From positions 1 through 42,623 of IMG/VR virus record IMGVR_UViG_3300035034_001089: 42,623 bases of DNA; one strand, given 5' to 3'. The notes below the pieces were generated by a model, which was not told the DNA's origin, searched no databases, and saw nothing but the letters and a program-made list of their open reading frames with translations. This document shows, in pieces, positions 10,950 to 32,750 of this stretch; the stretch's first letter is position 1, and every line of letters begins with the position of its first letter. The translations under genes and the position numbers were made by a program. Source of the stretch: a virus.

Positions 10950-11549
10950 ATGCAAGAGTCTGATAACACTACTAACAACTCACCTGAACCGAAACAAGAC
11001 GAACTTACGGTACTAAAGCAGCGTGCTGACCGTATGGGCCTTAAATACCACCCTTCTATTGGTGTGGAAGCTATTAAAGCCAAGATCAATGAACTGTTGG
11101 AAGCAGATAAAGCTACTATTGAGCCAATCGAACCTACTGAAACTCAAGCAGTAGTTACCCCTCAGAAAGAAACCCCCGGTCAAACGAAGTTGCGTAAGCG
11201 TCGAGAAGCCGAACAACTTGTCCGTATTAACGTGACCTGTATGAATCCCAGTAAGCGTGAATGGGATGGTGAGATTTTTACCGTCAGTAACGCAGTAATT
11301 GGTACCCATAAGAAATATGTACCTTTTAATACTAGTGAAGGCTGGCATGTCCCCCGAATTATCTATAATCAGTTAGTGGCCCGTAAGTGTCAGATTTTCT
11401 ATACCGTTAAAGATCGCCGTGGTAACAGTACCCGTAAAGGTAAGCTGATCAGTGAGTTTGCCATTGAAGTGTTGCCGATGCTAACCGAACGCGAATTGAA
11501 AGACCTCGCACAACGCCAAGCCATGGCCAAAGGGCAAGACGAGGCTTAA
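10950..11549 (+). CDS. Virion-associated protein with SAP/HeH-like N-terminus (N4 gp55-like position)
   Basis: This 199-aa protein has a short helix-extended-helix motif near residues 22-52 (LKQRADRMGLKYHPSIGVEA and on), a fold that often binds nucleic acid. A Thr/Pro/Glu linker follows, then a beta-rich C-terminal domain from about residue 90 (VRINVTCMNPSKREWDGEIF). The gene order relative to the capsid matches N4 gp55. A ribosome binding site GGAGAG precedes the ATG. Its exact role in the particle is unknown. Confidence 0.6.
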   Translation: MQESDNTTNNSPEPKQDELTVLKQRADRMGLKYHPSIGVEAIKAKINELLEADKATIEPIEPTETQAVVTPQKETPGQTKLRKRREAEQLVRINVTCMNPSKREWDGEIFTVSNAVIGTHKKYVPFNTSEGWHVPRIIYNQLVARKCQIFYTVKDRRGNSTRKGKLISEFAIEVLPMLTERELKDLAQRQAMAKGQDEA

Positions 11550-13419: not shown

Positions 13420-13437
13420 ATGTAGGTGATTAAAATT

Positions 13438-15690
13438 ATGAGTAGCGTACATGCTGTATCTTCTACCGTTATTAAGGGTGTTCCTGACGATAAAATACCT
13501 GACCCCATTAAAAAAGGACTAATTAACTCTATTTTTAAAGGCCAGAGTATTACTGATTCTTTCATTAATAATTTAATGTCAGGATCATTTCTTAATTTTG
13601 AAAGGTATTATCAATACGGCAAGGATCATTATATTCATGGTTTACCCAGTGGTAAGATTTTTCTGGATAATCCCGGTGGGGCCATAGCAAAAGCGATTAT
13701 AGAAGCACAAATAGGATTCGCTATTACTATTGATTATTTTTTCTTGGAGCCGATGAATCATACCCATTATGGGTGGTTAACACTTATTAATAATTTAGGG
13801 TATGAGGAAGAAACTAATAATATTCAAAGCTTAACTGCTGCAAATGGTTTCGATACTTTTTTAGAGCAGATTGTTCCTATTTACTCCCAAGATTTAATAG
13901 ATAAAGATTTAAATAGAACTTTTAAGGTATGGGGTTCTTCTCCTGCTGGCGGTTATACCCCAGAACGTCGTAGTCGTTATGATTATCTTATAAATTCCCG
14001 TCCTCCTATTACCGTTGATTATGAGATTGGTGTTGATGATACAGAAAAAGTTGCCATTGACTGGATGTATGTAGACGGAACAGGTGACACAGTAAGAGGT
14101 CGTATTATTTATGTTGTGCCTAATGTAGGCAACGAGTTAATGTTTTATCAGGTTAAGTATTATTATGATGATGCTGGAACAATCAAACCCGGTTACTGGA
14201 CTTATCAATATGGTTTAGGTACCCATCCTACACTGGATGTTCAGAGAGAGCCTGATCGTTCAGGTGACGGTACTTTTTTTCCTTTTGTATTTTTTAGATA
14301 CGATAGAGTTAACCGTACTGCTCCTGCTTATCAAAATACACCTGAATACGATAGCACTAAGAAACTGCTAAAAATTCTAGGTATTGATTACCAGCAAATG
14401 GGTGATGATATACATGATGAAGCCAATACAGAAATTAACATTGTAGAACAAGCTGTATTAGTGATGGCAATACCTATGAATAGTACTAAACCAGTAGAGC
14501 TTCGTTATTTATATGATTTTTTTGATAAATTACATCTTAATAATTTAGCTGAAGGTTATGAGCCGCCTCTTATTTTAGACGACACTTTATTAAAGACTTA
14601 TGCCATTTCTGATGTGGATTTTAAGGTTGAATTTCGTTACGCCCACACTCATAAGAAACTAAAAGCAGGCATTATAGGTTTACCTAATACATACAGCAGT
14701 GAAGCGACTGTAACAACAATGCAGAAAGCCTTTTATTATCCAAGACCTGGAAGACCGTTTGTACTTAATAAAGTAATTAAAGATGTTCCTGTTACTACGT
14801 GGCATTACCGTAAACAAGTAAGTTATACAACATATCAAGAAATCAGGATTTTAGCGCCTTCTGTTTATTATGATATTTGGAAAGATTTAGGTTATATAGC
14901 TCCTGCAGAGTCTGATGAGTTATTGATTTTTATAGATCGTGAAATTGTTAAAAATTATCCTGCTTTTGATAGAGAAGAGTTATATTTTCGTTCTTTACAT
15001 TACGTCATGAATGCTAAAAAGACTGAGAAACTAGCATGGTATGAGTCTTCTATTTTTAGATTGGTTGTTCTATTCGCCGCTATAGTAATAACTGTTAATT
15101 CTTTTGGTGCTTCTTCGCCCATTACTGGTACCGTACTAACAGCAGGTGGTCTTACAATAGGGGCACTTGCTATATATGTATTAGAAACTTTAGTAGTATC
15201 TGTTATTGCTTCACAAGCTGCAAAGATAGTAATAAAAAATATAGGATTAGAAAATGCTTTTATTGCTGCTATTCTTTTACTAGTAACTGCCTACTTCACA
15301 CGAGATAACAGCTTATTATCTATGCCTTCTGTTTCAGAAGCTATGGTGTTTATATCTTCTAATATTATTAATGGCTTTGGCGGTGCTATTGAACTAGAAA
15401 TGGAGAAACTAGTTGCTGGTTTTACAGAACTAGAATCAGATATAAATAAAGCAGAAGAACAGATAGCAAAAGCTCTTAAATTACTGGATAACCCTAATGA
15501 GTTACTGGACCCCTCAGTTTTTGTAAGAACCGGTCCTATATTTTTTGCTCATGAAACGCCTACTACGTTTTATGATAGAACCATTCATGCGGGTAATGTA
15601 GGTGTTTTGGCTTTTGATGCAATTGAGAAATTTGTAGAAAATTCACTTACACTACCTACTATAGACAATTCCTTCGGAGGTAAATTCTAA
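13438..15690 (+). CDS. Large virion protein with C-terminal membrane-like helices (N4 gp53-like position)
   Basis: This 750-aa protein has no catalytic motif that I recognise. The bulk is aromatic and beta-rich (YYDDAGTIKPGYWTYQYGLG, RYDRVNRTAPAYQ). Near residues 540-620 lie three or more long hydrophobic segments (LVVLFAAIVITVNSFG, GGLTIGALAIYVLETLVVS, AFIAAILLLVTAYF). A short helical tail follows. Such helices in a virion protein suggest an ejection protein that inserts in the host envelope. I use ATG 13438, eight bases after AGGTGA, rather than an upstream GTG at 13426. It ends overlapping the next gene. Confidence 0.65.
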   Translation: MSSVHAVSSTVIKGVPDDKIPDPIKKGLINSIFKGQSITDSFINNLMSGSFLNFERYYQYGKDHYIHGLPSGKIFLDNPGGAIAKAIIEAQIGFAITIDYFFLEPMNHTHYGWLTLINNLGYEEETNNIQSLTAANGFDTFLEQIVPIYSQDLIDKDLNRTFKVWGSSPAGGYTPERRSRYDYLINSRPPITVDYEIGVDDTEKVAIDWMYVDGTGDTVRGRIIYVVPNVGNELMFYQVKYYYDDAGTIKPGYWTYQYGLGTHPTLDVQREPDRSGDGTFFPFVFFRYDRVNRTAPAYQNTPEYDSTKKLLKILGIDYQQMGDDIHDEANTEINIVEQAVLVMAIPMNSTKPVELRYLYDFFDKLHLNNLAEGYEPPLILDDTLLKTYAISDVDFKVEFRYAHTHKKLKAGIIGLPNTYSSEATVTTMQKAFYYPRPGRPFVLNKVIKDVPVTTWHYRKQVSYTTYQEIRILAPSVYYDIWKDLGYIAPAESDELLIFIDREIVKNYPAFDREELYFRSLHYVMNAKKTEKLAWYESSIFRLVVLFAAIVITVNSFGASSPITGTVLTAGGLTIGALAIYVLETLVVSVIASQAAKIVIKNIGLENAFIAAILLLVTAYFTRDNSLLSMPSVSEAMVFISSNIINGFGGAIELEMEKLVAGFTELESDINKAEEQIAKALKLLDNPNELLDPSVFVRTGPIFFAHETPTTFYDRTIHAGNVGVLAFDAIEKFVENSLTLPTIDNSFGGKF

Positions 15691-16235
15691 TGAGTATTTT
15701 TGATGTTAATTTTGGAAAGGGCCAACAAAACTCTAACAGTTTTAGTAGTCAATTTCCTGTTATTAACGGAGCCGCTAATGGGACTGCCTATATTGGAGGC
15801 TCTTTGATGCCTCAAATAAGTAAGCCGATGGATATGGTAAGTTTACAGGGCTTAACTAATCAAGGTGTTAGCACGGCTGGCTTACCGGGTATTGGAGGTA
15901 AATTGGGTAATGATAATAACGGTGGTGATTTTACCCTGTTTCAGAAAATGTTTGGTGGGCAACAAGGGGACCAAAAGATAGGAGGTTCAGTTGGCCCTAT
16001 TGCTGAGCTAGGTACTGGACTTATGGAGGGTTATTTAGGCATGAAGAGTTATGGTTTGGCTAAGAAACAGCTTAAACAAGACAGAAACCAGTTTAATCTT
16101 AATTTTGATAATCAAGTAGATTCTACTAATTCTCAATTAAGAGATCGTCAAGCTACTCGGGTAGCTAGTAATCCTAATGCCATGCCTGTTGAAGAGTACA
16201 TGAAAATTCACGGTCTACAGGAGCGTACAGCATAA
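15690..16235 (+). CDS. Small Gly/Asn-rich virion protein (N4 gp52-like position)
   Basis: This 181-aa protein has a Gly/Asn/Gln-rich, probably flexible first 100 residues. A short helix follows (GLMEGYLGMKSYGLAKKQL), then a conserved DNQVDSTNSQLRDRQATRVA segment. The latter string is common near the vRNAP gene of N4-like phages and in internal core proteins. GGAGG lies before the ATG, which overlaps the preceding stop; the end overlaps the following start. It is likely an internal virion component accompanying the vRNAP. Confidence 0.65.
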   Translation: MSIFDVNFGKGQQNSNSFSSQFPVINGAANGTAYIGGSLMPQISKPMDMVSLQGLTNQGVSTAGLPGIGGKLGNDNNGGDFTLFQKMFGGQQGDQKIGGSVGPIAELGTGLMEGYLGMKSYGLAKKQLKQDRNQFNLNFDNQVDSTNSQLRDRQATRVASNPNAMPVEEYMKIHGLQERTA

Positions 16236-18103
16236 TGCCTATTACTTGGAAAAATGTTACTGGTGGTAGCAGTGCAGGTGTTGCCAGTTTATTGGAAGGT
16301 GCGCAAAAAGGTGTAGCCGCTGCTGGTAAAAGTATTACCGATGTCATTGGGAACCAGCAAAAGTTACAAGAAGAAAACCAAGTTGCTTTAGTTGGGCGTG
16401 CTGAAAATGACTTTCGTGATGCCATGCGTCAACAGTTTAGTACGCCTGAAGCCTTACAAGCAGGTATTCAAAGTGGTGCTGTAGACCAGTTGAGCCAACA
16501 GTTTGGTAACCTAGATAGAGGTATCGCAAGAGATGCGCCTACTAATCGGTTAAATGACTTACGTGAACAAGAAACTGCTCAGTTTAACTATGACAATGTA
16601 TTGGCAGAACGCGCTGAAGCACCTGACGTACAAAATGCGTTGAATTTAGCATCTCAAGGTAATATTGATGGGGCTATGCAAATTGTAGGGGATAAGAGTT
16701 TCCGTGATCCTGCTGCTTTGACTGCGCGTATTAATGCAGCCCATGGACAATTTAAGAATCGTCAACGTGATCAAGGCTTAAGTACAGCTAGAGCTTCCAT
16801 GGCTTCCTTGATAGAGAATCGAAATAACAAAGTGAATACCAATAAAGCAGCCCTCCAACAATACGTGAGAAACCAAGCTGAAAATGGGATAACCGAACTT
16901 AGTATCACAGAGGATGGTCAACTAGACACTTCCCGTATTACTGACCCACAAAAACTAGCTCAAGTGGAAGGTAATATTAATGAACTTGGTTTAAATCCAG
17001 CAGCTAACAACACAGCACTGGCTAATAACTTTAAAGAGCAACTGTTTAAGATTCCTGGTTTGAGTTTGGAAGATCAAAGCAATTTAACTGATGGTTTCCG
17101 TAATATACTTACTAAAGGTGCCCAGTTACAACCTGAAGACCAAGCAAGAAAAGACAGTGAAGTAGCTAATATTGATGCAAGAGAAGCTGAAGAATTAGGG
17201 CTTTATAACCAACAGCTTCAAAAAGAAGAAGGTAGTAATTTCTGGTTACAGGGTGTTAGCCAAGACCCTGGAGAAGCTATTAACGCTATCATGGAAGAAG
17301 CCTCTGATCCTGAAAGTACTCAGTATTGGCGACTAGATAGAATTAATCGTGAAGAAATTATGAAAAAATCCACGGAATTAATGGCTACAGGTATTAAGGT
17401 AGACGGACATGAAGGGAGAATACCTGTTACTCCCGCACTAATTAGAGCGGCTTTTCATGCAACAAAAGCCAATAAAGGTACAGCTTCTGACATGGAAACA
17501 GTTATAAAAGATATTATGGGTACCCCTGAAATGCTGAAACAGTACACGGATTCAGTTACTTCTATTCAGGATGCCTATATAGCCCGTAATAACATCAGTG
17601 CTGGATACAATGCCGAGCGTTTACAAGTTGAAAGCAGGTACTACAATGATAGTGGAATTAACCGTCCTGTTATTAGTAAATTAAAAGATAGACTTAAAAA
17701 TGAAAAAAATACACTAACTCAACTACAAAAAGTTAAGATTGAAAAAGAAATAGAAAAAGCCGAGAAAGAAGAGAAACGCATAAAAGCAGCAGACGCAGCT
17801 TTGGAAAAAATTAAACAACGTGCTGAAACCATCAATGGTGTAATTGATAATGTGTTTGGAGGTTCAGATAATTCACCTGAAACACGTAGAAGAAGAGGAA
17901 ACAATACTGGGGCACGTTTAAGGCAAGAAGTTGTAAATCCTGTGATTGATCCTGTAAATAATTTTACAGGTAATGTAACTGATTCGTTTAAAGCAGCTTT
18001 ACTTGCTAATGGGGCTAACGGAGCCATTCGAGTTAGAAACCTGCTAGATAATCTAGGTAGTTTTGCTTCTAACGCACCTTATGATCCTGATGCTAAACAA
18101 TAG
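16235..18103 (+). CDS. Helical internal virion protein (N4 gp51-like position)
   Basis: This 622-aa protein is almost wholly helical and charged, and lies immediately upstream of the vRNAP. It starts PITWKNVTGGSSAG, a typical N-terminus of internal core proteins. It has long Gln/Glu/Asn-rich helices and a Lys/Glu coiled coil near residues 480-540 (KVKIEKEIEKAEKEEKRIK). No lysozyme or protease motif is visible. Its place and composition suggest an ejected core protein. The ATG overlaps the previous stop and AGGAG precedes it. Confidence 0.65.
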   Translation: MPITWKNVTGGSSAGVASLLEGAQKGVAAAGKSITDVIGNQQKLQEENQVALVGRAENDFRDAMRQQFSTPEALQAGIQSGAVDQLSQQFGNLDRGIARDAPTNRLNDLREQETAQFNYDNVLAERAEAPDVQNALNLASQGNIDGAMQIVGDKSFRDPAALTARINAAHGQFKNRQRDQGLSTARASMASLIENRNNKVNTNKAALQQYVRNQAENGITELSITEDGQLDTSRITDPQKLAQVEGNINELGLNPAANNTALANNFKEQLFKIPGLSLEDQSNLTDGFRNILTKGAQLQPEDQARKDSEVANIDAREAEELGLYNQQLQKEEGSNFWLQGVSQDPGEAINAIMEEASDPESTQYWRLDRINREEIMKKSTELMATGIKVDGHEGRIPVTPALIRAAFHATKANKGTASDMETVIKDIMGTPEMLKQYTDSVTSIQDAYIARNNISAGYNAERLQVESRYYNDSGINRPVISKLKDRLKNEKNTLTQLQKVKIEKEIEKAEKEEKRIKAADAALEKIKQRAETINGVIDNVFGGSDNSPETRRRRGNNTGARLRQEVVNPVIDPVNNFTGNVTDSFKAALLANGANGAIRVRNLLDNLGSFASNAPYDPDAKQ

Positions 18104-18143: not shown

Positions 18144-21100
18144 ATGGCTGAGTTTGATTTCAATGAGTATTTAGACAGGCGTTTTCAAAATGAAAGAGAT
18201 GCTTTTAGCTTAACTCTTAAAACACCTATGAGTGTAAAAGAGAAAGCAATACAGAAGCGCACTGAAATACTTGAAAGCAAACAAAGTACCATGGGTGCTT
18301 TTGAGCAATTAATTACTAACCGTAAGGCTAATGAAGAATCTGTAATAGGAAAATTAAACCAACATCCTGACAGTCCAGTTGGTTTTGTATTAAATCAGGG
18401 ATCTTCACTGGCTTCTGCTACTTCAAGAACTGCAGGTAATTTAATAGCTGCCCCAATGGAGCTATTTAACATGGCTCGTCAGGCTAATATTGATGAACCA
18501 TCTATTCAGGCGTTTAACCGTTTAAAACAAAATACAGCTTCTCCTGAAGACTTGGAATTGTTATATAAACAGGAGAACGGTACTAGTCGTTTACAGCAAA
18601 TTGAAGACATTCAAAGCTTAAGGGAAAAAACAGCCAGTGTGCGTGAAACCTTTGATATTTCCGGCATTGTTCATCACGATAAACGTAAAAAAATGTCTGA
18701 AGACCTATGGCAAGGAGGACAGAAAGGCTTAGATCAACTTAAGGCCACGGTAAATAATTTAGAAGACGGTGAACTAGGCAAACTGGCTGTTAATTTAGTG
18801 TCTGGCTTAGCCAATACAGTCACTAATTTTGGCGCTACTGCCATTGATAATCCTGATGCTATTTTGCAATACATGGTGGAAATGGTACCGGATTTGGTAA
18901 CACTGGGCGTCTCTAACGTACTAGGGGCTACTAGTATTATCGGTGAAGGTCTTAATGCTTATCGTGGAGGTATTATCCGATACCAGGAAGAAAATGAAGG
19001 TGCTTTACCGTCTGATGACTTACGTCAGTATATGGCCTTAAATGCTTTTGGTTACGCAGCTTCTGAAACTATTGGTAACACAGCCATACTAAAACAGTTA
19101 GCAGGTGGTAAGAAAGCCGCTAAAGCCGTAACCGAAGGTGGCGCTGCTGCTTCAGGTAAAGTTTTAAAAGCAGGCACTACCAGTGCTGTTGTTGAAGGCG
19201 TAACGGAAACAATTCAAACAGCTTTTGAAGGTCAAGCCAGACTGGAAACAGCTACTCTTCGTGAATTACATGAAGCGGGTTTCATTGGTGCGGCCGCCGG
19301 TGGTGGATTAGGTGCTGGTGCGCGTGCAGTGGGTGAAAGTACCGGTAATACACCTGAAAGGGTAGCTGAACGTAAGAAGTTAAAAGAGGCTGTCACTACT
19401 GCACTTGATACCGGTAATGTGGATGCGTTATTGGATGAAACCAAGTCTACCTATAAACCTGCCGTTGCTTTACAGGTATTAACTACTTTATTTCAGAATG
19501 AAACAGTAGCACCACAGGATAAGCTTAAATATAAAGAGAAAATGAATAATCTCTTTTCAGAACTGGATTCTATTGTTGAGCGTAATCAAACAGACTTGGA
19601 TATTGATAGGGTAACTGAACTAAATGGTTTAGAAACCCAATTAGCTACTGTTAATGAAAGATTATCGGGCGAAAACACCCCTGAACAGGTTACCGCATTA
19701 AATCGCTATGCTGAAATCGTTAATGATCGTATTAAGGCTGCAAAGGCTTTTAATCCTAAAACAGTAGAAGCTTTTAATAAGAAAAGTAAAGAGCAACTCG
19801 CGTTTAGTCGGGATATTTATAATCAGTTTATTAACAATGAACAACAAAAAGAAAATGATGTTAATGAACTAGAAAAGACGGCTATATCCACTGAAGCTAC
19901 ACCAGAAGCTCGTACTGAAGCTGCTAAGAAGATTTCTACCCTGTCCATGGAGAACCCTAACCTCTTAAACGAGGAACTGGCTGAACAACTGGCTAACGAT
20001 GACAGTCTTGGTTTGAGTATCGAAGAGAAGACCTTCTTTAGGACGTTTAATGCCTCCCGTATAGCTCTTAATGCAACACGCGATATTAAAGGTGTCCGAC
20101 AAGATATTTTCGAGGGTACCACACACTACAAAGGCATTCCCATGTATGAAAAAGACATGGGCATTGCTATTCACACTAAAAATAAAGAATTAGCCGATAA
20201 ACAGTTATCTGGTATTCAAAACTTTGCTGCTTCTCATGTCAGTAAAGCAGATAAGGTAAAAGAAGCCTATGCCCGTACCCTAGTTACTAAAAAACCTGTT
20301 TATGTCATGTTTAATAAACAGACTGGTTGGGTAGCACAAGATAATCCGGTTAGAGGCTACCGTAATGGGGGCGGTCTAAAGATTGAAGCCGGTAAGTCCC
20401 AGAATCTGGTTAATTCTATCCCCTTGGAAGCTGCGGCTGTTCAAGCAGCATCGGAAAATTTACAGGCAACCTATACCCTTGCTTTTGGTACACCATCTAC
20501 TGCAGCACCCACTTCTGCAGTGGTTGATCCCGTGACTGAACCTGTACCTGTTGGTACCTCTTCAGAAGCCCCTCAAGCCCCTCAGGCTGGGCCACTAAAT
20601 AAAGACCCTGTAAAAGAGGCGGCCGCGCAAGAAATTATTGCTAAGGGCAAGGAGTTCCAGCCTGAAGAGCAACAGCGGGTTTTTGAGCTGGTGGAGCAGT
20701 ACCCTTCTTTGTTTAGCTTGAAACCTCGGATGATTGAAACAGGAGGGGAAGCGGGCCTCGTACAAGTGGGACATTTCGCAGGAGTAAGCAGTGATGTAGT
20801 ACTTACCGACTTGGGTAATTGGACACTGCTTTCCGACTCCCCTGCTAAGCGCAAAGCACTGCGTGATGCGGAGGTTACTCGGGCGATGTTAGATGCTTCC
20901 ATTAAGGATGTGAAGACATACACGGACTTCTTAGAGGCGTTCGAGTACCTCCGTGTAGATGAGGGCGTCCCAACGGCTAAAGCATTGAAACAGGCGTTTG
21001 ATGAAGGGATTCAGCCACAGGATGCACAGTCGGAGCGCAAGGGAGGGGAAGTACCGACGAACTCGGAGAGTACGCCGCTACACGGTGCGGTAGAAGGCGA

Positions 21101-24100
21101 GATACGCATGGCGGAGGATGCGCTGGCTAATCTTGAGAGTACGCCTGTGGTTGAACAGGCAGAGCCTGCTGAAACATCTAAGGAATTTTCTGGTGTTAAT
21201 GAAATAGATGAAGGTGTTAATCAGTTAAATACTGAAAATTCTGGCGAAGCTAGAGAACACTGGGAAAGTATCCGTACTGAATTAAAAATAACAAATGAAG
21301 ATATTGATGCGCTACCTACTAATTTAGGTACTATTTACAAAAAAACCCGTCGTTTGTTGAACCTTTTAGCGGGTAGGGATTTAGATTATGACACTTTAAC
21401 TGCTAGTACTCGCGCATCGGTGGATAAACTAAGTAATGAATGGGTTGAAGAGCTTAAAGATTTCATAAACCAAACTACTGATACTGGTTTGAAGAAATCA
21501 GCACAAGAAGTAATTGAAGTTCTTGAGATTAATGGAGTTACTGAATCTTTTGTTGAGTTGGATTCTTTAATGGTTGATTTAAAATCAGTTAAAGAAAGTA
21601 ATTTAGGTTTACTTACTGATACACCAACCAAGACAGGTAAAGCATCTGTATTTAGCATAGTACAAGATAAAGTAGATGGTTTAATGAAAGGGGATCAATT
21701 CACCACATTAAATCATGCAACTGCTTATTTTAAACAGGATGCAGGTAAAGATGGCGATAAGACTCTTAGGCCATTAGTTGCTGTACTGGATTACATGAGT
21801 AGAGCCTATGAAGCAGGTCTTAAAGGTGACTTCTCACTGGTTACTGATTACATATCCGAGACTCTTACTGAAGCTCAGGAAGACTTGCTTAGTAAAGTGT
21901 TTCCTTATGTGATTGGGTGGAATAAGACAATTACCAGACAATTAAAACAGATTGATAGAAAGAATTGGCATACTGACTATTTTCAGTACTTAATGGAAAA
22001 CTTTAATACTGAAAACAGTAATACTGTTGATATAGATGAGAACATCAAGAGTGCTATTTCTGTTGCTGTCTTTAAGTATGTAGGAGAAACCGGTAGTAGA
22101 GGCGTTATTAACGATTCAGACCAGATTAATAAAATATTAGGGCGTTCTAAAGGAACTGAAGTAACACCCCAAGAAGAATTGGTATTAAACCTAGGTATTC
22201 GTGACGATTTTGTCTTAGAAACACTAGGTAAGCAAATCATGCAAGTATTAGGCATGAGAGTCAGAACAGATATTGATGTGCCTACCAATGTTGAAGGTTT
22301 AATGGTAGAAGCATTAGGTGCGCGTGCTTATCGTTTAATGCAAGAAGAGGGTATGTTAAAGGTTAAGACAGTGACTCTTTATCAAGAGGGTGACCAATTA
22401 ACGATTCACAACAACGACACCAAGAAAGAAACCTATAACTTCGCTTACTTATCGGGTCGCTGGAAAGATAAAGGTAAATGGCGCACATTTGAGTTAGACG
22501 AACGTAATAAAGATATTGTTACTGCCACTAAAGGTACTCAAGATGTCTTAGGTAAGTTGTTTTCTATGGAAGCCAACTTAACTCATCCTAGTTTCAAACC
22601 GGTTAAATATACTCAGAAGAATCCGACTAATACAATTACTGATACGCCTAGTACCTTAAAAGAGGGCTTAGGTGAAAAAGGTGAAGGCGGTAAGGAACAC
22701 AGACTCAGAACAGACATGCTAAAAGCTGTTATGGCTTTGCCTGAAAATGAGCGGCGTCTTATTTCCGGTATGACTGATTTTGATGCTAACCCTGTTCATG
22801 CTGACGATGTAATGAAGGTACAAAGTGCCAATGATGCTTTGGAACGTGAATATGATCGGTTAATGGAATTTGCTGAACTAGCGGAAAAGAACGGTATTGA
22901 GAATCCCATCTTCTTTGATCACAGTGTTTGGAAGATGCACCGGGTAGGTATCAACAGTGATTCGGTTAATATACTAGGCAGTATCATGCACCGTAACATG
23001 GTGTACATGAATAGTTGGGCACAACCTATCCCCACTAAGAGCTTGGATGATGGTAATAATGTCTTTGAACGCTTCCAGTTAGCCGTTGCCCAGTCTTTTG
23101 GTATTAAGATAGAAAACGATAAAACTGCACTGGACAAATTAAAGGAGAAACAAGCTGATCCTACGGTTAAAGCGGCTGTTAAAGCACTGGAAAGAAGCCT
23201 AACCGATAAAGAGTTTGATAATTTCAGTCAAGAAGAAGCCACTAATATCAGACAAGCCGTACAGTTAGGGGGCGAGAACTTTCATACCTTTAATGGGCTT
23301 ATGGGGCTTGCGCGTCATCAAGCAGCTAAAGATGCTGATACTTTTGTTCCTTATCTGTCGATTGAAATAGACGGACGCACTAACGGTCCTATCCTGTTGA
23401 ATCTACAACTGGCTGCAGCTAATAACAGTAATGAGCTAGGTCAGATTATGGAACAAGGAGGTATGTATTCACAAGCCTCCGGTATACAGAACTCTATTGA
23501 TTGGGTTACTAAAGACGGTAACTACGATCTGTATCAGAAGATTATTAGTAAAGCCTATACTGCCATGCAATTTTGGGCCAATACATATCCAAGAAGAAAT
23601 GCCATAAATAGTATTGAATGGTTCACTAACCAATTAGCCGATAAAACCAGTAAACGTCCTACATCAGATGGTCGTAAGGTAGTTAAGACAGGCTTTACTG
23701 CTTTTACCTTTGGTTCGGGTATGCGGAGTATTCTTCTTGGTTTGGAAGAAGATTTCATGCGTAATATCCGTAATAAGATGGCAGAAGCATCAACTGATCC
23801 TGTATTAAGCCAAGAGGTTATTAGAAATATTAATCAGTTAATAGGTTTCGGTAAGTTTGATTCAGGAGCCAGACAAATACCCGCTAATAATGTAAATAGC
23901 TTGGATTCATTGAAACTGAATCTATTACAGGAAAAAGCTATCCGTAAAGCGTTTACTCTAGGTTTAGGTAATAGAGTAAGAAACACTATTCAAGAAGATT
24001 ACGGAATCCTGATTGAAAAACGTAATGTCTTCAATAATGCCGCTAAAATAGCGTTTGAACTGTATAACATGAGTTATGAGTACCTTAGAAATAAGACTAT

Positions 24101-27100
24101 TGAAGACTTGATGGATTCAGGTGACATGCCCTTCTTTATGCAAAGGAAGAAGAACCCTAAAACCAGTGAATTTGAAGAAACCGGTAAGCGTATACCTTAT
24201 CAAGACTTAACCGCTAAACAAGAGAAAGAGATCCGGGATAAGCTAGGTGAGCTATCCCCGTTAATGCACACGGCACATTCCCATAACTCAGGGGAATTAA
24301 ATGCCGGGTTACGGTTAGTCGGTGAAGGTAAAGAGTTTGGTTCCGGTCCTGCCCATACAGGCCGTGCTAATTTCCAACCTAATAAGGCTAAAGGATTAAA
24401 AGAGAAAATGCGGTTTAGTGCGGTAACCCGTAAAGAGAAGGCTCCCGGTGTGGGTTCCATTCCAATGGGGATTCATTCCTTGGATAGTCTAATTGCTTTC
24501 CTGACGTATACCAAGTTTGATGCCATTAACTCCCATGACGGTAGTACAACCAGTGTTAATGAGGTATTGGAAGTGGCTCAGACCATGAATGAGCAATTGT
24601 TCCGGGCTTCTCTTGATTACTCCCTCCCTTTGGAAATAGCCAATGTATTAGAGCGTACTATCTTTGGTTTCCAACAGTTATTCATGCAAGAAGGTCAACC
24701 TGACGTATTGGCTAAGAAGTTTGCGGAACTAGATCAACACGATTTCATAAAAGGATCGAATGAGAACGAAATTCAACAGAATTTAAAGAGTTTTGTTACG
24801 CAAGTCTTTGGTGTGGCCAAACAAAGCACATTACTGAAATTAAAGACGATGGCTACATTAGACTTTTACGATCACTACAGTTTTGAAGGGGGGTCATACA
24901 TATCTACTGTTACGGATAAAGTGGATATTAATACTAAGATTGATCAAACCAATAAACTAGAATTAGGGGATGCACTGGACGCTTTGAATGTGTTGAATAA
25001 CATTGAAGCCGTGCGCAATTATAGAAAAGAATCAGAACCTGATATTGAAATTGTTGATCCTGATCCTGTAACTGATCCTTTAATAGCAATTACTAAGGTA
25101 AACGGTGCTGCTGTTATTCGCTCTTATATTGGTAAGTTAACTGAATTGGCTGTTGCTGAGCAGAAAAAGAAAGAAGGTAAAGTCCGTAAAGCTTATGATG
25201 AATTAAAACAAGCTAGACGGTTAGAATCTTTCTTTGTTAAACAAGGCAATTTAAAAAACGCTATAAAATCTTTAGCTCTTAATAGTAAAGAACAAGAAGA
25301 AGCTTTATATGCAGCTATAACCAACCATGTTAACGAACGAGTACCTAATGTTAAAAACGTATTAGATACGCCTCGGTTCAATGTATTAAATACTATTGAT
25401 AATGTATTAAGTCGTAGTCCCAGTAATGAGATTAAAGAGCAATTAAATAAACTTAAGGATCATGTAACTAATAACTTTACTAGCTTAAGAGAAGCCATAG
25501 AAACTGTCTTTACTGTACCCCTAGAGCAGGCACACGTATTGTCTGTGTTGCATCGTGCTTATAACAGTAACCGTAAGACTGTCTTTGGTGAATTAGGTGA
25601 GTCTATTGGTTTTAATGATGAGAAGTGGGTTAATTTCTTTGATACTAATCAGAACATAACAGCCGGTCAATTACTGGAACAATTAAAAAATAGTGAGGGT
25701 CTTTCTAAGTTTGATAGAACACTCACAGGCATGATTGGTAGAGTACTGGATAAGACTATACCCGTTAATTACATTACTACAGCTTACCCTACTGACTTTG
25801 CCCCTAAAGGCGTAAGCAAAGCTAAGGGTTGGTATAACCCCATAGGTTTGGGTAATGACTTGAACTTTAAGAGTCCTGAGTTTATAGAGTCTGGTTTAAC
25901 CAATGAATTGATCCTACATGAGCTATTACATGCTGCTTTAAAACAGGCTATTGCTAATCCTCAAAAGAGTAAGGAAGCTGCGGAGTTAATAAAGGAATTG
26001 GAGTCATTAAGAAAAGAAGCCAAGAAGTTCATTGATAAAATGGATGATAGTGACAAGGCTAAGTACTCCCCGGCAATTAAAGATGTGGATGAGTTACTGG
26101 CTTGGGGACTGAGCAATAGTGACTTCCAAAAAAATGTCTTAAGTCAGATAAAACTCAAAAACAAAGTGAATAATAGCCTGATTAGTACCGATGCTATGAA
26201 GAAGTTCATCAGTAACATTGTTGACTGGTTATTTAAGGGTTTATCGATTACTACCAAGAAAACGGCCAATAACGGCTTATCAATATTGGTTATTAATGCG
26301 TCAGGGTTATTTGCTGAAGCTACTAAAAATAGACAGACGCGAGTTAATGGTGAATCTGATACTTTGTTACAGGAGAATCCCGATATTCTTAGGGAAGATT
26401 CAGGTTACACCACGGAAGAGATTTTTGATGCGTTAGGAGAAAAGCAGTCCCGTCCTGTGGATGCTAAATTTAGTAAGCACCTAAGAGGTCTGCTTACTGA
26501 TATGGTAGCCATGGTGCATGGTTCTCGTGGCCCCTTGCGTACCGAAGCCATGAAGGATCAGACGTTAACTGCTACTGAGGTGTTCTTAAACTCCTCTATT
26601 CATGAGGTACCCTATACCTCGGAATCTATTACTGTTGGTTTCCCATTAACGGATCAAGAGGCTTATGTACTGGAGCAAGTAGAGCTAACCGTTAAGACTG
26701 CTCTTGATTTTGGTCATGTAGCGGCTCAACAGTTGAGTAGGGCATTCTTTGAGGCTAAAGCTAAGCTGAGTCCGGCTGACTTCCATAATGGGGATTACAC
26801 TATAGCTACCCCTGAACAGGTAAGAATAGCAGAAGAGAAATATGCTTTTGTTTTCCGGCCTAAAGTCATTGAGGGTAATAAGTCAGAACACTTAAGTCGT
26901 TTTGCTGCTTTAGCGTTAAGCCATAAAGGTTTCAACGATAAGTTACAGTTTCAAGTGGGTAAGCAGAATATAGCCTTACGTGGCCTTACTATGTCACAAC
27001 GTGTTCGTGAGATATTCTTACGGTTGGTGCGTTTCCTGGAACAGAAGATTACCGGTACTACTGATACCGATACATTGGATAACCGTATCAAAATATTAAC

Positions 27101-29873
27101 ACGGCAATTGGTTAACATCGAAGCCAAGAAAAAAGTTGCACTTGCCCGTACTAATATTAGCTACGCCGATTCCGCGAATATTGCGTTAAAAGGCGCAGGG
27201 GAAAAGGTTAATAGAGCAGTTGAGAAAGTAGGACGTTCTAAGTTGTTTACATTCAGTAAAAACAATTACATTAAGCTAATGGGGAATATCCCCAGTACGA
27301 TTGCCGGTAAGCGCGTGGAATATGTGCTCGAAGGATTACAACGTACTCGTAACGCCATGTTCAAGGATCGTCAGGGATTGTTTTCCAGTATAGTAACGGA
27401 AGTGCAAGGGGTTAATGACGGTAATGCGTCTATTCATCTGCTGCTTAATGCAGGTAACCGTATTCAGCAACAACGTAGACAGCTAAAGTCTGAAACCACG
27501 AAAATTATTAAGCGTTCCTTCGATCAAGGCGGGGAGTACCTAACAAAAGACTATGAAACGGTTCTAAGTCGTATTGGTTTACGCACCGGTATGTTTTCTT
27601 TATTGGATAAGTACTCACTAACGGATATTGAGAAACTGTTATCTGACAGTAAGCACCTGAATACAGAAATACAGACTCAGATTAAGGAACTAGGTAAGCT
27701 TAGTACCAATTTAAATGAGCATGTCTACCACTCCAAAGCGTTAGCTTATCAACTGGTTACTGGTCGTGTGGTAGAAGAAAACCTACTGCGTAATGCCCAT
27801 AATATTGCCCGCTTATTGGGTACTGGGACTAGAGAATCTCAATTTAATGATCCTGATATTATAGATTTGGTTTCGGTGATTGATCCGTTGGTATCGTTAC
27901 TGGCTTTGAGTTATTCCAATCCTAACGATCTTAAATTAATGAATGAGGTACTTAAGCAAGAGAACAGCCGTAAAGAAGGTAACGGTATTGAGTTCATGTT
28001 GGGATTACATAAAGGACTGCAGCAAAAATCCATAGACACACTTTTTGCGGGTAATCCGACACAGATGCTTAAGGGTTATGTACAGGATACGTTTGATCCT
28101 TATAAGCAGATCGTTATAGCGGATGAAAAGCAAGGTGCCGTATTAGAGAGTATGGGTTGGAAAAAGAAAGGGCGTACTCCAACTGATCCCAATGATCCTA
28201 ACGATGAGCCGGGTAATATTAAGCATTTATACGTCATTCGAGATGGTGGCCTAAAAGGTTATCAAATGGGTGCCATGATGAAGACTGATACCCAATCAAG
28301 AGGTCAATCCGTTCATGCAGGGCTAACAATACCGGGTAAGGTTAAAGTCAATATTAGTAATCTGAAGATCAATCAGGATATTCACAGGAAAAAATTTGGT
28401 AGAGTCCACAATGCGTCCAAGAAGGGACTAACCTTTGATCCCACCAAGGTTACAGCCAATTACATGGCTCCTATCTTTAATGATCAAGGTGGAGTGGCTA
28501 ATTACACTTACCTAATGAATGAAGCCACTAAAGATAATATCCTAGACCGGGATAACAGTATGTCCTCCATATTGGGGACTACAGCGAGTAATATCTTCGA
28601 TAAGGCCGCTTCAATAGATCAGAATATAGCGGTGATTAAAGCACTTCATGATCAGGCTAAAGCAGAACGACACTTAAAGCCTGAATCCTATGTGTCTATC
28701 AGTGCTAATAGTTCAATAGCTGACTTCCGTGAACTGTATAAAATGCTACCTACTGAAACCAAGAAAGCGATTAAGGGGATTACCGGTACGAATGAAATTT
28801 CGGTTAGAGCTGATTTAGTGTCATTGGTTTTCGGTTCCCGTAAGTACAGCATCAGTGATTCTTTCCATAAGGACAGTAATGAATTAACCATAGCCAGTCG
28901 TATTTACGTTGAGATTATGGAAGGCATGTTTGGCAAGAAAATCGCCCTGAGACTGCGAATAGGTGAGAATGTCTGGGAAGAAACTGTTAAGCATGTGAAG
29001 GATATTATCGTAGTAAAGAACATCACTACGTTAATGGGTAACATGCTTCATAATATCTCCTTGTTGCTTTGGTACGGTATGTATCCAAGTGACATTATTA
29101 AACATCTTGTCACTGGTTTCCGTTCTATTATTGAATACCAACGTAATACCAATGAGTTATACCAGTTGGAAGCCATGGTAGAAGGTGACTATGTTGAAGG
29201 TGATAAACAAGCCCAGGATGATCGTATTGTCTTGTTGAGAGACGCCATTGAACGAAGTCCAGTACATAAATTAGCGGAAGCGGGACTGTTTCAAACCATT
29301 GCTGAAGATTTGGACTTATCCGACGATCCGCATTCTTATACCTCACTGTTATCCCATAAAACAGCGAAGTTCACGGCTAAGTTACCGGATTGGGCTGTCA
29401 AGACCGGTAAGACGCTGTATATGGCACACGATACACCTCTTTATAAGCTGCTTAGGGATGCGACGTATATGAGTGACTTTGTGGGGCGGTATGCACTACA
29501 TCAGCACTTAACCACTCGCAAGGTTGATCCACTATCAGAAGATGAGTCACTGGTTAGAATTATGGAAGCGTTTGTTAACTATGACATTCCGACACACCAA
29601 ACCCTACAGTATTTGAACGATACGGGTATCTTACCGTTCACTAAGTACTACATCCGTATACAAAAGGTACTGTTTCAACTGATGCAGGAACAACCTGCCA
29701 GAGCACTTGCTTTGATTGGTTTCTCGAATTATTTGGATTGGTTTTCTACCGTAGATGAGTCGAACATTGTGAACAAGCTGGGGTCTAGTCCTTTCCAGGC
29801 AGGAGCATTAACTTATCCAGGTGTATTGGATGAGCTAGGAACGGTTAAGACCATTACAGCCTTCATTCCTTAA
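18144..29873 (+). CDS. Giant virion RNA polymerase (N4 gp50-like vRNAP) with a metallopeptidase-like motif
   Basis: This 3909-aa protein is longer than N4 vRNAP (about 3500 aa). It should be packaged, injected and used to transcribe early genes from the incoming DNA. T7/N4-type polymerase motifs occur in order. A degenerate TxxGR region is WKMHR (R1600), in a context HSVWKMHRVGINSDSVN. Motif A is EIDGRTNGP (D1743). Motif B is RKVVKTGFTAFTFGSG (R1844, K1848, F1856, G1857), with exact T7 spacing but Phe where T7 has Tyr639. Motif C is INSHDGSTT (H2131, D2132). A zincin-like HELLH follows at 2592-2596. The N-terminal 1400 and C-terminal 1300 residues are helical, of unknown fold, and presumably serve packaging and ejection. 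Codons about 805-1008 are unusually GC-rich. AAGGA precedes the ATG; a bidirectional terminator follows. Confidence 0.88.
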   Translation: MAEFDFNEYLDRRFQNERDAFSLTLKTPMSVKEKAIQKRTEILESKQSTMGAFEQLITNRKANEESVIGKLNQHPDSPVGFVLNQGSSLASATSRTAGNLIAAPMELFNMARQANIDEPSIQAFNRLKQNTASPEDLELLYKQENGTSRLQQIEDIQSLREKTASVRETFDISGIVHHDKRKKMSEDLWQGGQKGLDQLKATVNNLEDGELGKLAVNLVSGLANTVTNFGATAIDNPDAILQYMVEMVPDLVTLGVSNVLGATSIIGEGLNAYRGGIIRYQEENEGALPSDDLRQYMALNAFGYAASETIGNTAILKQLAGGKKAAKAVTEGGAAASGKVLKAGTTSAVVEGVTETIQTAFEGQARLETATLRELHEAGFIGAAAGGGLGAGARAVGESTGNTPERVAERKKLKEAVTTALDTGNVDALLDETKSTYKPAVALQVLTTLFQNETVAPQDKLKYKEKMNNLFSELDSIVERNQTDLDIDRVTELNGLETQLATVNERLSGENTPEQVTALNRYAEIVNDRIKAAKAFNPKTVEAFNKKSKEQLAFSRDIYNQFINNEQQKENDVNELEKTAISTEATPEARTEAAKKISTLSMENPNLLNEELAEQLANDDSLGLSIEEKTFFRTFNASRIALNATRDIKGVRQDIFEGTTHYKGIPMYEKDMGIAIHTKNKELADKQLSGIQNFAASHVSKADKVKEAYARTLVTKKPVYVMFNKQTGWVAQDNPVRGYRNGGGLKIEAGKSQNLVNSIPLEAAAVQAASENLQATYTLAFGTPSTAAPTSAVVDPVTEPVPVGTSSEAPQAPQAGPLNKDPVKEAAAQEIIAKGKEFQPEEQQRVFELVEQYPSLFSLKPRMIETGGEAGLVQVGHFAGVSSDVVLTDLGNWTLLSDSPAKRKALRDAEVTRAMLDASIKDVKTYTDFLEAFEYLRVDEGVPTAKALKQAFDEGIQPQDAQSERKGGEVPTNSESTPLHGAVEGEIRMAEDALANLESTPVVEQAEPAETSKEFSGVNEIDEGVNQLNTENSGEAREHWESIRTELKITNEDIDALPTNLGTIYKKTRRLLNLLAGRDLDYDTLTASTRASVDKLSNEWVEELKDFINQTTDTGLKKSAQEVIEVLEINGVTESFVELDSLMVDLKSVKESNLGLLTDTPTKTGKASVFSIVQDKVDGLMKGDQFTTLNHATAYFKQDAGKDGDKTLRPLVAVLDYMSRAYEAGLKGDFSLVTDYISETLTEAQEDLLSKVFPYVIGWNKTITRQLKQIDRKNWHTDYFQYLMENFNTENSNTVDIDENIKSAISVAVFKYVGETGSRGVINDSDQINKILGRSKGTEVTPQEELVLNLGIRDDFVLETLGKQIMQVLGMRVRTDIDVPTNVEGLMVEALGARAYRLMQEEGMLKVKTVTLYQEGDQLTIHNNDTKKETYNFAYLSGRWKDKGKWRTFELDERNKDIVTATKGTQDVLGKLFSMEANLTHPSFKPVKYTQKNPTNTITDTPSTLKEGLGEKGEGGKEHRLRTDMLKAVMALPENERRLISGMTDFDANPVHADDVMKVQSANDALEREYDRLMEFAELAEKNGIENPIFFDHSVWKMHRVGINSDSVNILGSIMHRNMVYMNSWAQPIPTKSLDDGNNVFERFQLAVAQSFGIKIENDKTALDKLKEKQADPTVKAAVKALERSLTDKEFDNFSQEEATNIRQAVQLGGENFHTFNGLMGLARHQAAKDADTFVPYLSIEIDGRTNGPILLNLQLAAANNSNELGQIMEQGGMYSQASGIQNSIDWVTKDGNYDLYQKIISKAYTAMQFWANTYPRRNAINSIEWFTNQLADKTSKRPTSDGRKVVKTGFTAFTFGSGMRSILLGLEEDFMRNIRNKMAEASTDPVLSQEVIRNINQLIGFGKFDSGARQIPANNVNSLDSLKLNLLQEKAIRKAFTLGLGNRVRNTIQEDYGILIEKRNVFNNAAKIAFELYNMSYEYLRNKTIEDLMDSGDMPFFMQRKKNPKTSEFEETGKRIPYQDLTAKQEKEIRDKLGELSPLMHTAHSHNSGELNAGLRLVGEGKEFGSGPAHTGRANFQPNKAKGLKEKMRFSAVTRKEKAPGVGSIPMGIHSLDSLIAFLTYTKFDAINSHDGSTTSVNEVLEVAQTMNEQLFRASLDYSLPLEIANVLERTIFGFQQLFMQEGQPDVLAKKFAELDQHDFIKGSNENEIQQNLKSFVTQVFGVAKQSTLLKLKTMATLDFYDHYSFEGGSYISTVTDKVDINTKIDQTNKLELGDALDALNVLNNIEAVRNYRKESEPDIEIVDPDPVTDPLIAITKVNGAAVIRSYIGKLTELAVAEQKKKEGKVRKAYDELKQARRLESFFVKQGNLKNAIKSLALNSKEQEEALYAAITNHVNERVPNVKNVLDTPRFNVLNTIDNVLSRSPSNEIKEQLNKLKDHVTNNFTSLREAIETVFTVPLEQAHVLSVLHRAYNSNRKTVFGELGESIGFNDEKWVNFFDTNQNITAGQLLEQLKNSEGLSKFDRTLTGMIGRVLDKTIPVNYITTAYPTDFAPKGVSKAKGWYNPIGLGNDLNFKSPEFIESGLTNELILHELLHAALKQAIANPQKSKEAAELIKELESLRKEAKKFIDKMDDSDKAKYSPAIKDVDELLAWGLSNSDFQKNVLSQIKLKNKVNNSLISTDAMKKFISNIVDWLFKGLSITTKKTANNGLSILVINASGLFAEATKNRQTRVNGESDTLLQENPDILREDSGYTTEEIFDALGEKQSRPVDAKFSKHLRGLLTDMVAMVHGSRGPLRTEAMKDQTLTATEVFLNSSIHEVPYTSESITVGFPLTDQEAYVLEQVELTVKTALDFGHVAAQQLSRAFFEAKAKLSPADFHNGDYTIATPEQVRIAEEKYAFVFRPKVIEGNKSEHLSRFAALALSHKGFNDKLQFQVGKQNIALRGLTMSQRVREIFLRLVRFLEQKITGTTDTDTLDNRIKILTRQLVNIEAKKKVALARTNISYADSANIALKGAGEKVNRAVEKVGRSKLFTFSKNNYIKLMGNIPSTIAGKRVEYVLEGLQRTRNAMFKDRQGLFSSIVTEVQGVNDGNASIHLLLNAGNRIQQQRRQLKSETTKIIKRSFDQGGEYLTKDYETVLSRIGLRTGMFSLLDKYSLTDIEKLLSDSKHLNTEIQTQIKELGKLSTNLNEHVYHSKALAYQLVTGRVVEENLLRNAHNIARLLGTGTRESQFNDPDIIDLVSVIDPLVSLLALSYSNPNDLKLMNEVLKQENSRKEGNGIEFMLGLHKGLQQKSIDTLFAGNPTQMLKGYVQDTFDPYKQIVIADEKQGAVLESMGWKKKGRTPTDPNDPNDEPGNIKHLYVIRDGGLKGYQMGAMMKTDTQSRGQSVHAGLTIPGKVKVNISNLKINQDIHRKKFGRVHNASKKGLTFDPTKVTANYMAPIFNDQGGVANYTYLMNEATKDNILDRDNSMSSILGTTASNIFDKAASIDQNIAVIKALHDQAKAERHLKPESYVSISANSSIADFRELYKMLPTETKKAIKGITGTNEISVRADLVSLVFGSRKYSISDSFHKDSNELTIASRIYVEIMEGMFGKKIALRLRIGENVWEETVKHVKDIIVVKNITTLMGNMLHNISLLLWYGMYPSDIIKHLVTGFRSIIEYQRNTNELYQLEAMVEGDYVEGDKQAQDDRIVLLRDAIERSPVHKLAEAGLFQTIAEDLDLSDDPHSYTSLLSHKTAKFTAKLPDWAVKTGKTLYMAHDTPLYKLLRDATYMSDFVGRYALHQHLTTRKVDPLSEDESLVRIMEAFVNYDIPTHQTLQYLNDTGILPFTKYYIRIQKVLFQLMQEQPARALALIGFSNYLDWFSTVDESNIVNKLGSSPFQAGALTYPGVLDELGTVKTITAFIP
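20560..21170 (+). other. GC-rich island inside the vRNAP gene
   Basis: Within this AT-rich gene, roughly 20560-21170 changes abruptly to GC-rich codons (GCG, CTG, CGC, GAG), including a GCGGCCGC octamer near 20621, then returns to AT-rich usage at about 21175. The reading frame is uninterrupted. It encodes a domain with DFLEAFEYLRVDEGVPTAKA preceded by a Pro/Ala-rich linker and followed by an acidic linker. I read it as a recently acquired domain. Confidence 0.5.
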
Positions 29874-30135: not shown

Positions 30136-30435
30136 TTAAGAGCCGAAGATACTGGCACTATCTTCAGAAGTTTCTACTGCTGGTGTTTCTACGGCTTCTT
30201 CTGTTGTTGTTGCTTCAGAAGTTTCAAACTCGCGAATAGTTTCACCGGTAGTTACCTGTTTTGCTACATTAACAGCAGAAGCATCGGTAATATCCACATC
30301 CACTGAAATACCGCTATTCTTACGCCCTGCAATGAAACTAAAGTCAATATCTTTGCCACTCAGGTTAATACCCTGACCTGTAATGTATTGTTTCATGGCT
30401 TTTTGGATTTCATCCTGCTTGAATTGTATCAACAT
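30136..30435 (-). CDS. Conserved small protein with acidic tail
   Basis: This 99-aa protein has an ordered N-terminal half (MLIQFKQDEIQKAMKQYITG, then GKDIDFSFIAGRKNSGISVD). The C-terminal 35 residues are disordered, Glu/Thr-rich and end SIFGS. The N-terminal pattern is widespread in phages next to replication genes, but I know no proven function. The acidic tail ending in hydrophobic residues recalls tails that bind replication partners. It overlaps the resolvase gene by 26 bases and has a strong AGAAGAGG ribosome binding site inside it. Confidence 0.6.
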   Translation of the reverse strand: MLIQFKQDEIQKAMKQYITGQGINLSGKDIDFSFIAGRKNSGISVDVDITDASAVNVAKQVTTGETIREFETSEATTTEEAVETPAVETSEDSASIFGS

Positions 30436-31018
30436 CTTTTACCTCTTCTCTTAATTGTAAAAATTTAACGGATTGCTGGAATTGTTGTGTTTGTAAACCA
30501 GCATATATAGTACCAACGGCATCTGCTAAATGTTCAGCAGTGCCCTCAGTAATTTTCACGACTCCTTGTTTTTTGTGGTTAGGCCATTCCACTTCTGGAT
30601 GTAATCGAGTAGCCCAGGCAATCATTTCCAATTTGGTTGCCGATTTCTTTCCAGTTGCTGCTAATTTGACTTCTATGGGGGTAATTTCCGTAATAGGAAA
30701 CTTACAGGCTCTTAATGCTCCTATAATGGCAAAACAGACGCCATTACCAACAGAAGCTCTTGCCATTTGAGAACCTGCAGGTACTTCTGCAAATACAATA
30801 TCGGAACCCTTACAAAACTCAACAGCACCGGTAAACAGTTGCTCCGCTTTTTCTACGTCTTTACTATTCTGTCTGACGCTCTTGTGTTTAGTAACTTCAG
30901 GCTGAATAATAACAAGATCGGTTAATGTCAACTTTTGAGTGTTAGTATCATAAATCCCTTTCGCCATCCCCCAATTCCGCATAGAAGGATCAAATCCAGT
31001 TACTTTAATGAGACTCAT
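30410..31018 (-). CDS. RuvC-like Holliday junction resolvase
   Basis: This 202-aa protein has the RNase H-like fold of RuvC resolvases, which cut branched DNA before packaging. The first strand is KVTGFDPSMRNWG with D10. The second acidic residue is E78 in VFAEVP. The C-terminal motif is EHLADAVGTIYAG with H162 and D165. The segment ITPIEVKLAATGKKSATK fits the DNA-contacting loop of the family. It resembles a conserved N4-group protein near the terminase (gp69, from memory). A leftward promoter lies about 50 bases upstream. The ribosome binding site is weak. Confidence 0.75.
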   Translation of the reverse strand: MSLIKVTGFDPSMRNWGMAKGIYDTNTQKLTLTDLVIIQPEVTKHKSVRQNSKDVEKAEQLFTGAVEFCKGSDIVFAEVPAGSQMARASVGNGVCFAIIGALRACKFPITEITPIEVKLAATGKKSATKLEMIAWATRLHPEVEWPNHKKQGVVKITEGTAEHLADAVGTIYAGLQTQQFQQSVKFLQLREEVKDVDTIQAG

Positions 31019-31217: not shown

Positions 31218-31958
31218 TCAATCGTTGAACAGACTAGAGGTGGGCTTGGTAGAAGCGTCTGCAGTTGGTCTTGACCCTGAAGGCGCACCTGCGGTACCGG
31301 CTGTCTTGGTTGTCTTGTCTTTTACCTTACCTTCCCATTTTTTCTTCCATTTCTGTAGAAATTTAGGATCAGTTTCCTTGGCATCAATTTCTACCTTGGT
31401 TAGGCCATCAATAGCCCGGAACATCTTATCAATTTCGTTTTCTTCACGGATTTCAGCGGTAGGTTGGTATTTACCGTCAGCATCTTTTACATTTTTATTG
31501 GTGGTCTGCTTCAATAAGCCAAGTGTAATTTCTTTGCCTAATAGATCAGTCAGCATTTGTACCTTGGTAGGAATTTCTGACTTGGTTTCTGGGGAATAGA
31601 GGTTAATCACCTTTTCTTCGGTGTCCAACTCACTAAGAGACTTTTCAACCGTTAGTAGGCATAAAGCGTTGGCTTGATTGAATCCGGGTAGGTAATTCTT
31701 CTCACCTTGGCTGTTTTCGTAGTAATTTTTATTACCTTTAAGATCCCCGGAAGTCACATAGAGGGTATTCCGCATTTCACTGCTGTCAGGCATCTTAAAG
31801 ACCAGATGCAGGCCCATGGCTCCCTTGGGTGACTTTTGAGCATAAGCCAGTTCAATCTTGGCAGTATAAACACCTGAATCATAGACTTTAAAGCCGCCTA
31901 GTACGTCTGATTCGCCTTTAATGGTGTCATCGGTAGTTAAATCTTTAAACATTGACAT
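31218..31958 (-). CDS. ssb: Single-stranded DNA-binding protein
   Basis: This 246-aa protein is recognised by the phage SSB pattern SGVYTAKIELAYAQKSPKGA, LHLVFKMPDSSEMRNTLYVT and KNYLPGFNQANALCLLTVEK, expected to form an OB fold. Residues 205-240 are a Lys/Thr/Ser/Pro linker, and the end SSLFND is a short acidic/aromatic tail like those that contact replication partners. It would coat displaced strands. In N4 the SSB (gp45) also activates host RNAP at late promoters, so a similar second role is possible. AAAGGAAA precedes the ATG, with a TTTTGG repeat (plus strand) just upstream. Confidence 0.75.
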   Translation of the reverse strand: MSMFKDLTTDDTIKGESDVLGGFKVYDSGVYTAKIELAYAQKSPKGAMGLHLVFKMPDSSEMRNTLYVTSGDLKGNKNYYENSQGEKNYLPGFNQANALCLLTVEKSLSELDTEEKVINLYSPETKSEIPTKVQMLTDLLGKEITLGLLKQTTNKNVKDADGKYQPTAEIREENEIDKMFRAIDGLTKVEIDAKETDPKFLQKWKKKWEGKVKDKTTKTAGTAGAPSGSRPTADASTKPTSSLFND

Positions 31959-32027: not shown

Positions 32028-32750
32028 TTAAGCGTAGTAGGCACGTAGTCTATCGAATACTTGGTCTATATCATTATCAATATAAAGTTCATTACGATTC
32101 CAAAGTCCGATAGCTGCACGCATCTTCTCGCCTATACTGTCTTTGGTTACACGAGTACAGAAGACGTATTTAAAACCATCTTCCTTTTCATTATCCGTAA
32201 TGTGGAGAAGATCATTCTCTATTCCTTCAAGTTTCTTAATGGGCATCTGTTTAGTGGATAGTATTGTAGTGAAGTCAGCTTCAGCGCCTATTTTGCCAAC
32301 AGAGCCTTTTATTGGTATACGTGATTCCATTTGCATGGCTTGCTCATTAAGGAAGCTTTCTTCATGGGCTATAATCGCATAGTCCTTAGTACCTGCTTTA
32401 ATATCGTGGATAAAACTCCTGTAAAAATTACCATAGTCTCCCCACGCTTTTTGAGTGTTAACTGAGTTAATTACATATTGACGTTCATACATATTCATTA
32501 GAAAAGTAAGTGTATCTAGTACTACTCCTTCAACGGCTGTACTGTTTTCAATTTCACGAATGTAATTCAATACATCAACCGCATCGGATACTTCTACATT
32601 TTTCATGAAGTGATCAGCAAACGGTAAGTCTTTTAAATCTGTATTAAGGTAAACCATCTTCTCTTGGTTTTTTAGTTTCATTAAAGAGGCAGATTTACCT
32701 GTATTAGGTTTACCCATGATTAGTACTATGTTTTTGTTACTTGATGTCAT
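32028..32750 (-). CDS. RecA-like/Sak4-type ATPase
   Basis: This 240-aa P-loop protein has Walker A GKPNTGKS (13-20) and Walker B in VEGVVLDTLTFL. It has the length and layout of Sak4-like phage recombinases, shortened RecA-core ATPases that work with an SSB to anneal or exchange strands. Its gene lies next to SSB and near a RecB/Cas4-like nuclease, supporting a recombination role. An AAA ATPase of N4 (gp24) is another possible relative. GGAGTGG lies before the ATG. Confidence 0.75.
   Translation of the reverse strand: MTSSNKNIVLIMGKPNTGKSASLMKLKNQEKMVYLNTDLKDLPFADHFMKNVEVSDAVDVLNYIREIENSTAVEGVVLDTLTFLMNMYERQYVINSVNTQKAWGDYGNFYRSFIHDIKAGTKDYAIIAHEESFLNEQAMQMESRIPIKGSVGKIGAEADFTTILSTKQMPIKKLEGIENDLLHITDNEKEDGFKYVFCTRVTKDSIGEKMRAAIGLWNRNELYIDNDIDQVFDRLRAYYA

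Follow-up and report, generated by a model that had tools for sequence, protein, structure and literature searches.

The 42,623-bp stretch of DNA analysed here (the window) corresponds to an entire IMG/VR record, classed as linear, and carries a giant gene that had been recognised from the sequence alone as a possible N4-type virion RNA polymerase (vRNAP). Schitoviridae genomes are linear with terminal repeats and 59–80 kb long. The locus therefore raises the question of whether the window comes from a compact, reduced branch of N4-like phages, as the preliminary description had suggested for the case of a near-complete window, or is part of a larger genome.

Gene content and order

Pseudomonas phage vB_Pae_TUMS_P11 (OR424355; Litunavirus, Migulavirinae, Schitoviridae; 73,182 bp), hereafter P11, served as reference for gene order. 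The features of the window are given below with the evidence for each; percentages are identities to P11.

1418–2113 (+): gp69-like protein; phrog_2109, E 1e-94; 46% to P11 gp69
2647–4242 (+): terminase large subunit (TerL, gp68); phrog_38, E 1e-91; 63%
4254–4964 (+): gp67-like virion protein; phrog_2125; 35% to P11 gp67
5195–5617 (-): dUTPase; PF00692, E 2e-22; 49%, same position in P11
5662–7839 (+): portal (gp59); PF23899, E 5.5e-152, and phrog_1216; 55%
7911–8255 (+): gp58-like; phrog_2346, P11 comparison
8255–9421 (+): gp57-like, tape-measure family; phrog_2120, P11 comparison
9436–10869 (+): major capsid protein (MCP, gp56) with about 80 residues inserted; phrog_1357, alignment
10950–11549 (+): gp55-like; phrog_2130, P11 comparison
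11583–13358 (+): gp54-like, 591 aa, internal repeats; phrog_2050
13426–15690 (+): gp53-like; phrog_2220, P11 comparison
15690–16235 (+): gp52-like ejection protein; phrog_2646, P11 comparison
16235–18103 (+): gp51-like ejection protein; phrog_6467; 28% to P11 gp51
18144–29873 (+): vRNAP, N4 gp50-like, 3909 aa; phrog_2206, PDB chains, gp50 alignment, Foldseek
30410–31018 (-): RuvC-like resolvase (gp46); phrog_159, P11 comparison
31218–31958 (-): single-strand DNA-binding protein (SSB, gp45); phrog_743, P11 comparison
32028–32750 (-): Sak4-like annealing protein (gp44); phrog_124, P11 comparison
33413–35560 (-): DNA primase (gp43); phrog_2135, E=0; 55%
35577–36557 (-): exonuclease (gp42); phrog_2139, E 2.6e-131; 45%
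37982–40504 (+): tail fibre protein, first of the tail module; phrog_496; 38% to P11 37500–38789
42478–42623 (+): open reading frame that runs off the right end of the record after 48 codons, with no stop; sequence

Genes run forward from gp69 (1418), the terminase small subunit in the literature, to the end of the vRNAP gene (29873), in reverse between 29.9 and 37.3 kb, then forward again in the tail genes from 37.98 kb to the end. Gene order and strands agree with P11 from gp69 through the exonuclease to the forward tail module; the dUTPase gene between gp67 and the portal gene lies on the reverse strand in both. The virion genes upstream of the giant gene had been described as following N4 order, and this held when portal, gp58, gp57, gp56, gp55, gp54, gp53, gp52, gp51 and vRNAP were each checked against P11. 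The right-hand N4 replication genes (RuvC/gp46, SSB/gp45, Sak4/gp44, primase/gp43 and exonuclease/gp42), absent from the preliminary description, are also present in the window. N4 itself differs here in lacking a tail module, and its exonuclease gp42 comes directly after polA and gp40/gp41.

Several details of the window were noted besides gene order. The gp54-like protein (11583–13358) has 591 aa compared with 254–369 aa in relatives and is expanded by degenerate internal repeats (motif ALNIPKQG), with DNA units spaced 42, 63, 189 and 231 nt; P11 gp54 lacks this expansion. The MCP insertion of about 80 residues (~88–172) follows a GIDAAG motif, is common to the relatives G010 and G012, and is absent in P11 and in the uncultured relative G016. 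It is possibly a surface or decoration domain. An ORF of the tail module (40981–41346, 121 aa) matches phrog_240, 'head protein', with E 1.9e-19. Near the left end, at 109–127, there is a perfect 8-bp hairpin, CCCCACTC-TAG-GAGTGGGG, followed by a T-rich, terminator-like stretch. No tRNA genes were found in the 42,623-bp window.

The virion RNA polymerase

The giant gene encodes an RNA polymerase of the kind packed in N4-type virions, which in Schitoviridae is a large protein (~3500 aa). In a PHROG profile search phrog_2206 ('virion RNA polymerase') matched residues 87–3903 with E=0, and solved N4 vRNAP chains in the PDB matched with E about 1e-53, most strongly over the C-terminal domain and less so over the RNAP core. 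A Pfam search of the protein did not recognise the family. The layout comprises an N-terminal ejection/membrane part (~1–1000), an RNAP domain (~1176–2296) and a C-terminal domain (~2442–3909).

Polymerase motifs A, B and C had previously been read from the sequence in this order, and a multiple alignment with N4 gp50, whose catalytic residues we take to be R1421, D1556, K1667 and D1948, bears this out. R1600 of the window vRNAP corresponds to N4 R1421, D1743 (motif A) to D1556, K1848 (motif B) to K1667 and D2132 (motif C) to D1948; all four are kept in the same order as in N4 and the single-subunit RNAP superfamily. The C-terminal domain also keeps its HExxH motif (HELLH at 2592, HELVH at 2228 in N4 gp50). 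An AlphaFold2 model of residues 1176–2300, with an input of only five sequences, is of low confidence (pLDDT 54, pTM 0.44). Used as a Foldseek query, this low-confidence model nevertheless matched single-subunit RNAPs: all eight PDB matches at E<0.001 were N4 vRNAP (best 3c3l, E 8e-14), and the next was yeast mitochondrial RNAP (0.0097). Together with the profile match, the PDB chains and the catalytic residues, this confirms the earlier identification.

The window vRNAP shares the three-part architecture, the catalytic residues, HExxH and the RNAP fold with N4 gp50 (3500 aa) and mini-vRNAP (PDB 2PO4, 3C3L, 9PNQ), using the N4 domain limits from PMC12633501. The RNAP domain is only about 15% identical to that of N4 gp50, and compared with the latter the window protein has insertions at 828–922, 943–985, 1047–1175 and 2306–2430, the largest of which sits near the linker between the RNAP and C-terminal domains. 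N4 Y1675 is replaced by F1856, and P11, G010 and G012 also have F at this position. The P11 vRNAP is about 27–34% identical to that of the window and 500 aa shorter, while that of G016 has 3370 aa compared with 3909 aa. The window protein thus exceeds the range of 2,842–3,820 aa given for reference genomes (PMC10654107). The long vRNAP, the repeat-expanded gp54 and the capsid-protein insertion are unusual details of this phage.

A nucleotide search with the vRNAP gene among phage records gave no match, and there is therefore no close cultured relative among the phage records searched. A search of viral contigs with peptide patterns from the vRNAP centre also found none, since the protein is too divergent for exact patterns.

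In N4 the head holds the vRNAP, which is ejected along with gp51/gp52 and uses its central domain to transcribe early genes at hairpin promoters (PMC12633501). By homology to N4, infection by the window phage would proceed similarly: a few vRNAP copies in the head would be ejected into the cell together with gp51/gp52, and their single-subunit RNAP domain would recognise hairpin promoters as the phage DNA enters; early genes, RNAP II (gp15/gp16) among them, would then be transcribed. A scan for hairpin promoters (short stem, 3-nt loop) in relatives gave counts with no clear shared motif; the early region lies outside the window.

Missing core genes and related phages

Seventeen conserved proteins are listed for Schitoviridae (PMC7650795), and 12 of these are carried by the window (gp42, 43, 44, 50, 52, 54, 56, 57, 59, 67, 68 and 69). 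The other five are gp15 and gp16 (RNAP II), gp24, gp25 and gp39 (DNA polymerase). The preliminary description was thus right that DNA polymerase and RNAP II are not recognisable, as both were absent from the 42.6-kb record on search. After the P11 tail module come lysis genes, rIIB/rIIA, polA, gp37 helicase, gp25, gp24, RNAP2 and RNAP1, so that the five absent genes form one contiguous block beyond the point where the window stops. The tail module separates gp42 from this polA/RNAP II block in P11, and the window stops inside its own tail module. If five of 17 core genes were independently absent, the chance of all being neighbours on a circular map would be 17/6188, or about 0.3%. The pattern is explained by truncation or by one large deletion. 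Two observations speak for truncation: the last frame, from 42478, has no stop before the final base, and nothing in the window was recognised as a lysis gene.

In a maximum-likelihood tree of the portal, one of the three proteins (TerL, portal and vRNAP) proposed in the preliminary description for a phylogeny, the window falls in a clade of eight rows with seven IMG/VR contigs (support 100/99). This clade groups with Migulavirinae and Cbunavirus (support 85/83), which places the window within Schitoviridae. The uncultured clade member G016 (IMGVR_UViG_3300044640_003674; 68,166 bp) has polA, gp37 helicase, gp25, gp24, RNAP2 and RNAP1 immediately ahead of gp69, followed by the gene order of the window, to which its TerL, portal, MCP and primase are 69, 61, 69 and 56% identical. 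Three further members (G009, G014 and G015) have RNAP2 and RNAP1 just upstream of gp69/TerL, and G009 also carries the start of polA. The 44.7-kb G010, also of this clade, has a similar extent to the window, likewise lacks the block and is likewise cut inside a tail ORF.

Two interrupted genes were observed in these relatives. The RNAP2 gene of G015 (L043:1421–3629) is interrupted by about 1 kb holding a group I intron (Rfam RF00028, 84 bits, L043:2329–2591, minus strand). The DNA polymerase of G016 (L092:3982–7448) is split into two frames of 255 and 577 aa with about 1 kb between them; an Rfam search at this split found no intron, and an insert, intein or frameshift are candidate causes.

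Fragment or compact genome

We consider the window very probably a metagenomic contig that covers only part of an ordinary schitovirus genome, so that the missing block lies outside the contig and is not lost; the giant gene encodes the vRNAP of this phage. DNA polymerase, helicase, gp24/gp25 and RNAP II would then sit between the tail module at the right end and gp69/TerL at the left end, an arrangement seen in phages of the same clade from which their presence in the window phage itself may be inferred. The window is shorter by at least about 22 kb compared with G016 and about 34 kb compared with P11; these are different phages, but they suggest a genome of roughly 65–76 kb, of which the window would make up ~60%.

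On the compact reading, an N4-type phage with a genome of only about 43–45 kb would instead have lost the polA-helicase-gp24/25-RNAP II block, use host enzymes and keep the vRNAP for early transcription. The absence of the block from the window agrees with this, as do the 44.7-kb G010 and the small N4-like UViGs on record (PMC10654107). Counting against a fragment, a search among viral contigs with an exact 30-mer from the right end found neither a match nor any overlapping contig that would join the block to the DNA of this phage. High-quality (HQ) N4-like UViGs as small as 42 kbp are also reported, but as defined there these all have a DNA polymerase. On the other side, an open frame of the tail module is cut off at the right end, neither direct nor inverted terminal repeats were found in the 42,623-bp record, and the P11 lysozyme, spanin and holin genes lie to the right of where the window ends. 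Moreover, RNAP II is kept in G016, G009, G014 and G015 and polA in the first two, and the full-coverage relatives by portal or vRNAP, among the matches listed from roughly 470 phage-collection records, are all at least 58.7 kb. We therefore regard a compact genome as very improbable. A chimeric assembly, in which a structural contig was wrongly joined and the gene content could not be interpreted, has hardly any likelihood: nothing specific favours it, GC content along the window varies only between 0.35 and 0.45, and order and orientation from gp69 to the tail fibre agree with P11, G010 and G016.

Two other leads were set aside. A 38.5-kb contig with a relative of the 41366–42478 protein (31% identity) was of no help, as neither a portal nor an N4-type polA matched in it. 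Poorviridae do not fit, as they have only three hallmark genes in common with N4-like viruses, and they include DNA polymerase (PMC11654794).

Returning to the incomplete contig of an ordinary schitovirus, the earlier proposal of a reduced or divergent branch thus stands in its second part only, as reduction had presupposed a near-complete window. To call the lineage divergent is fair at about subfamily level; it lies beside Migulavirinae and has no cultured members among the phages searched. Uncultured N4-like lineages of this kind are already known in number, with 795 genomes in 97 subfamilies and HQ-UViGs of 42–131 kbp (median 73 kbp), every one of which by definition has the full set of seven hallmark genes, DNA polymerase among them (PMC10654107). 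When gp67 or gp57 is taken as the 'tail protein', at least six of these seven occur in the window, and only DNA polymerase is absent.

A reduced genome, if true, would reveal which N4 functions are dispensable, but the evidence points the other way, and a complete vRNAP-carrying lineage of ~43–45 kb without its own DNA polymerase and RNAP II seems most unlikely. The window contributes a further sequence, with one of the longer vRNAPs, to an uncultured branch of Schitoviridae that lies beside Migulavirinae and has roughly subfamily rank. It also illustrates that a metagenomic fragment can mimic a reduced genome, since the genes of the polA/RNAP II block are contiguous and go missing together.
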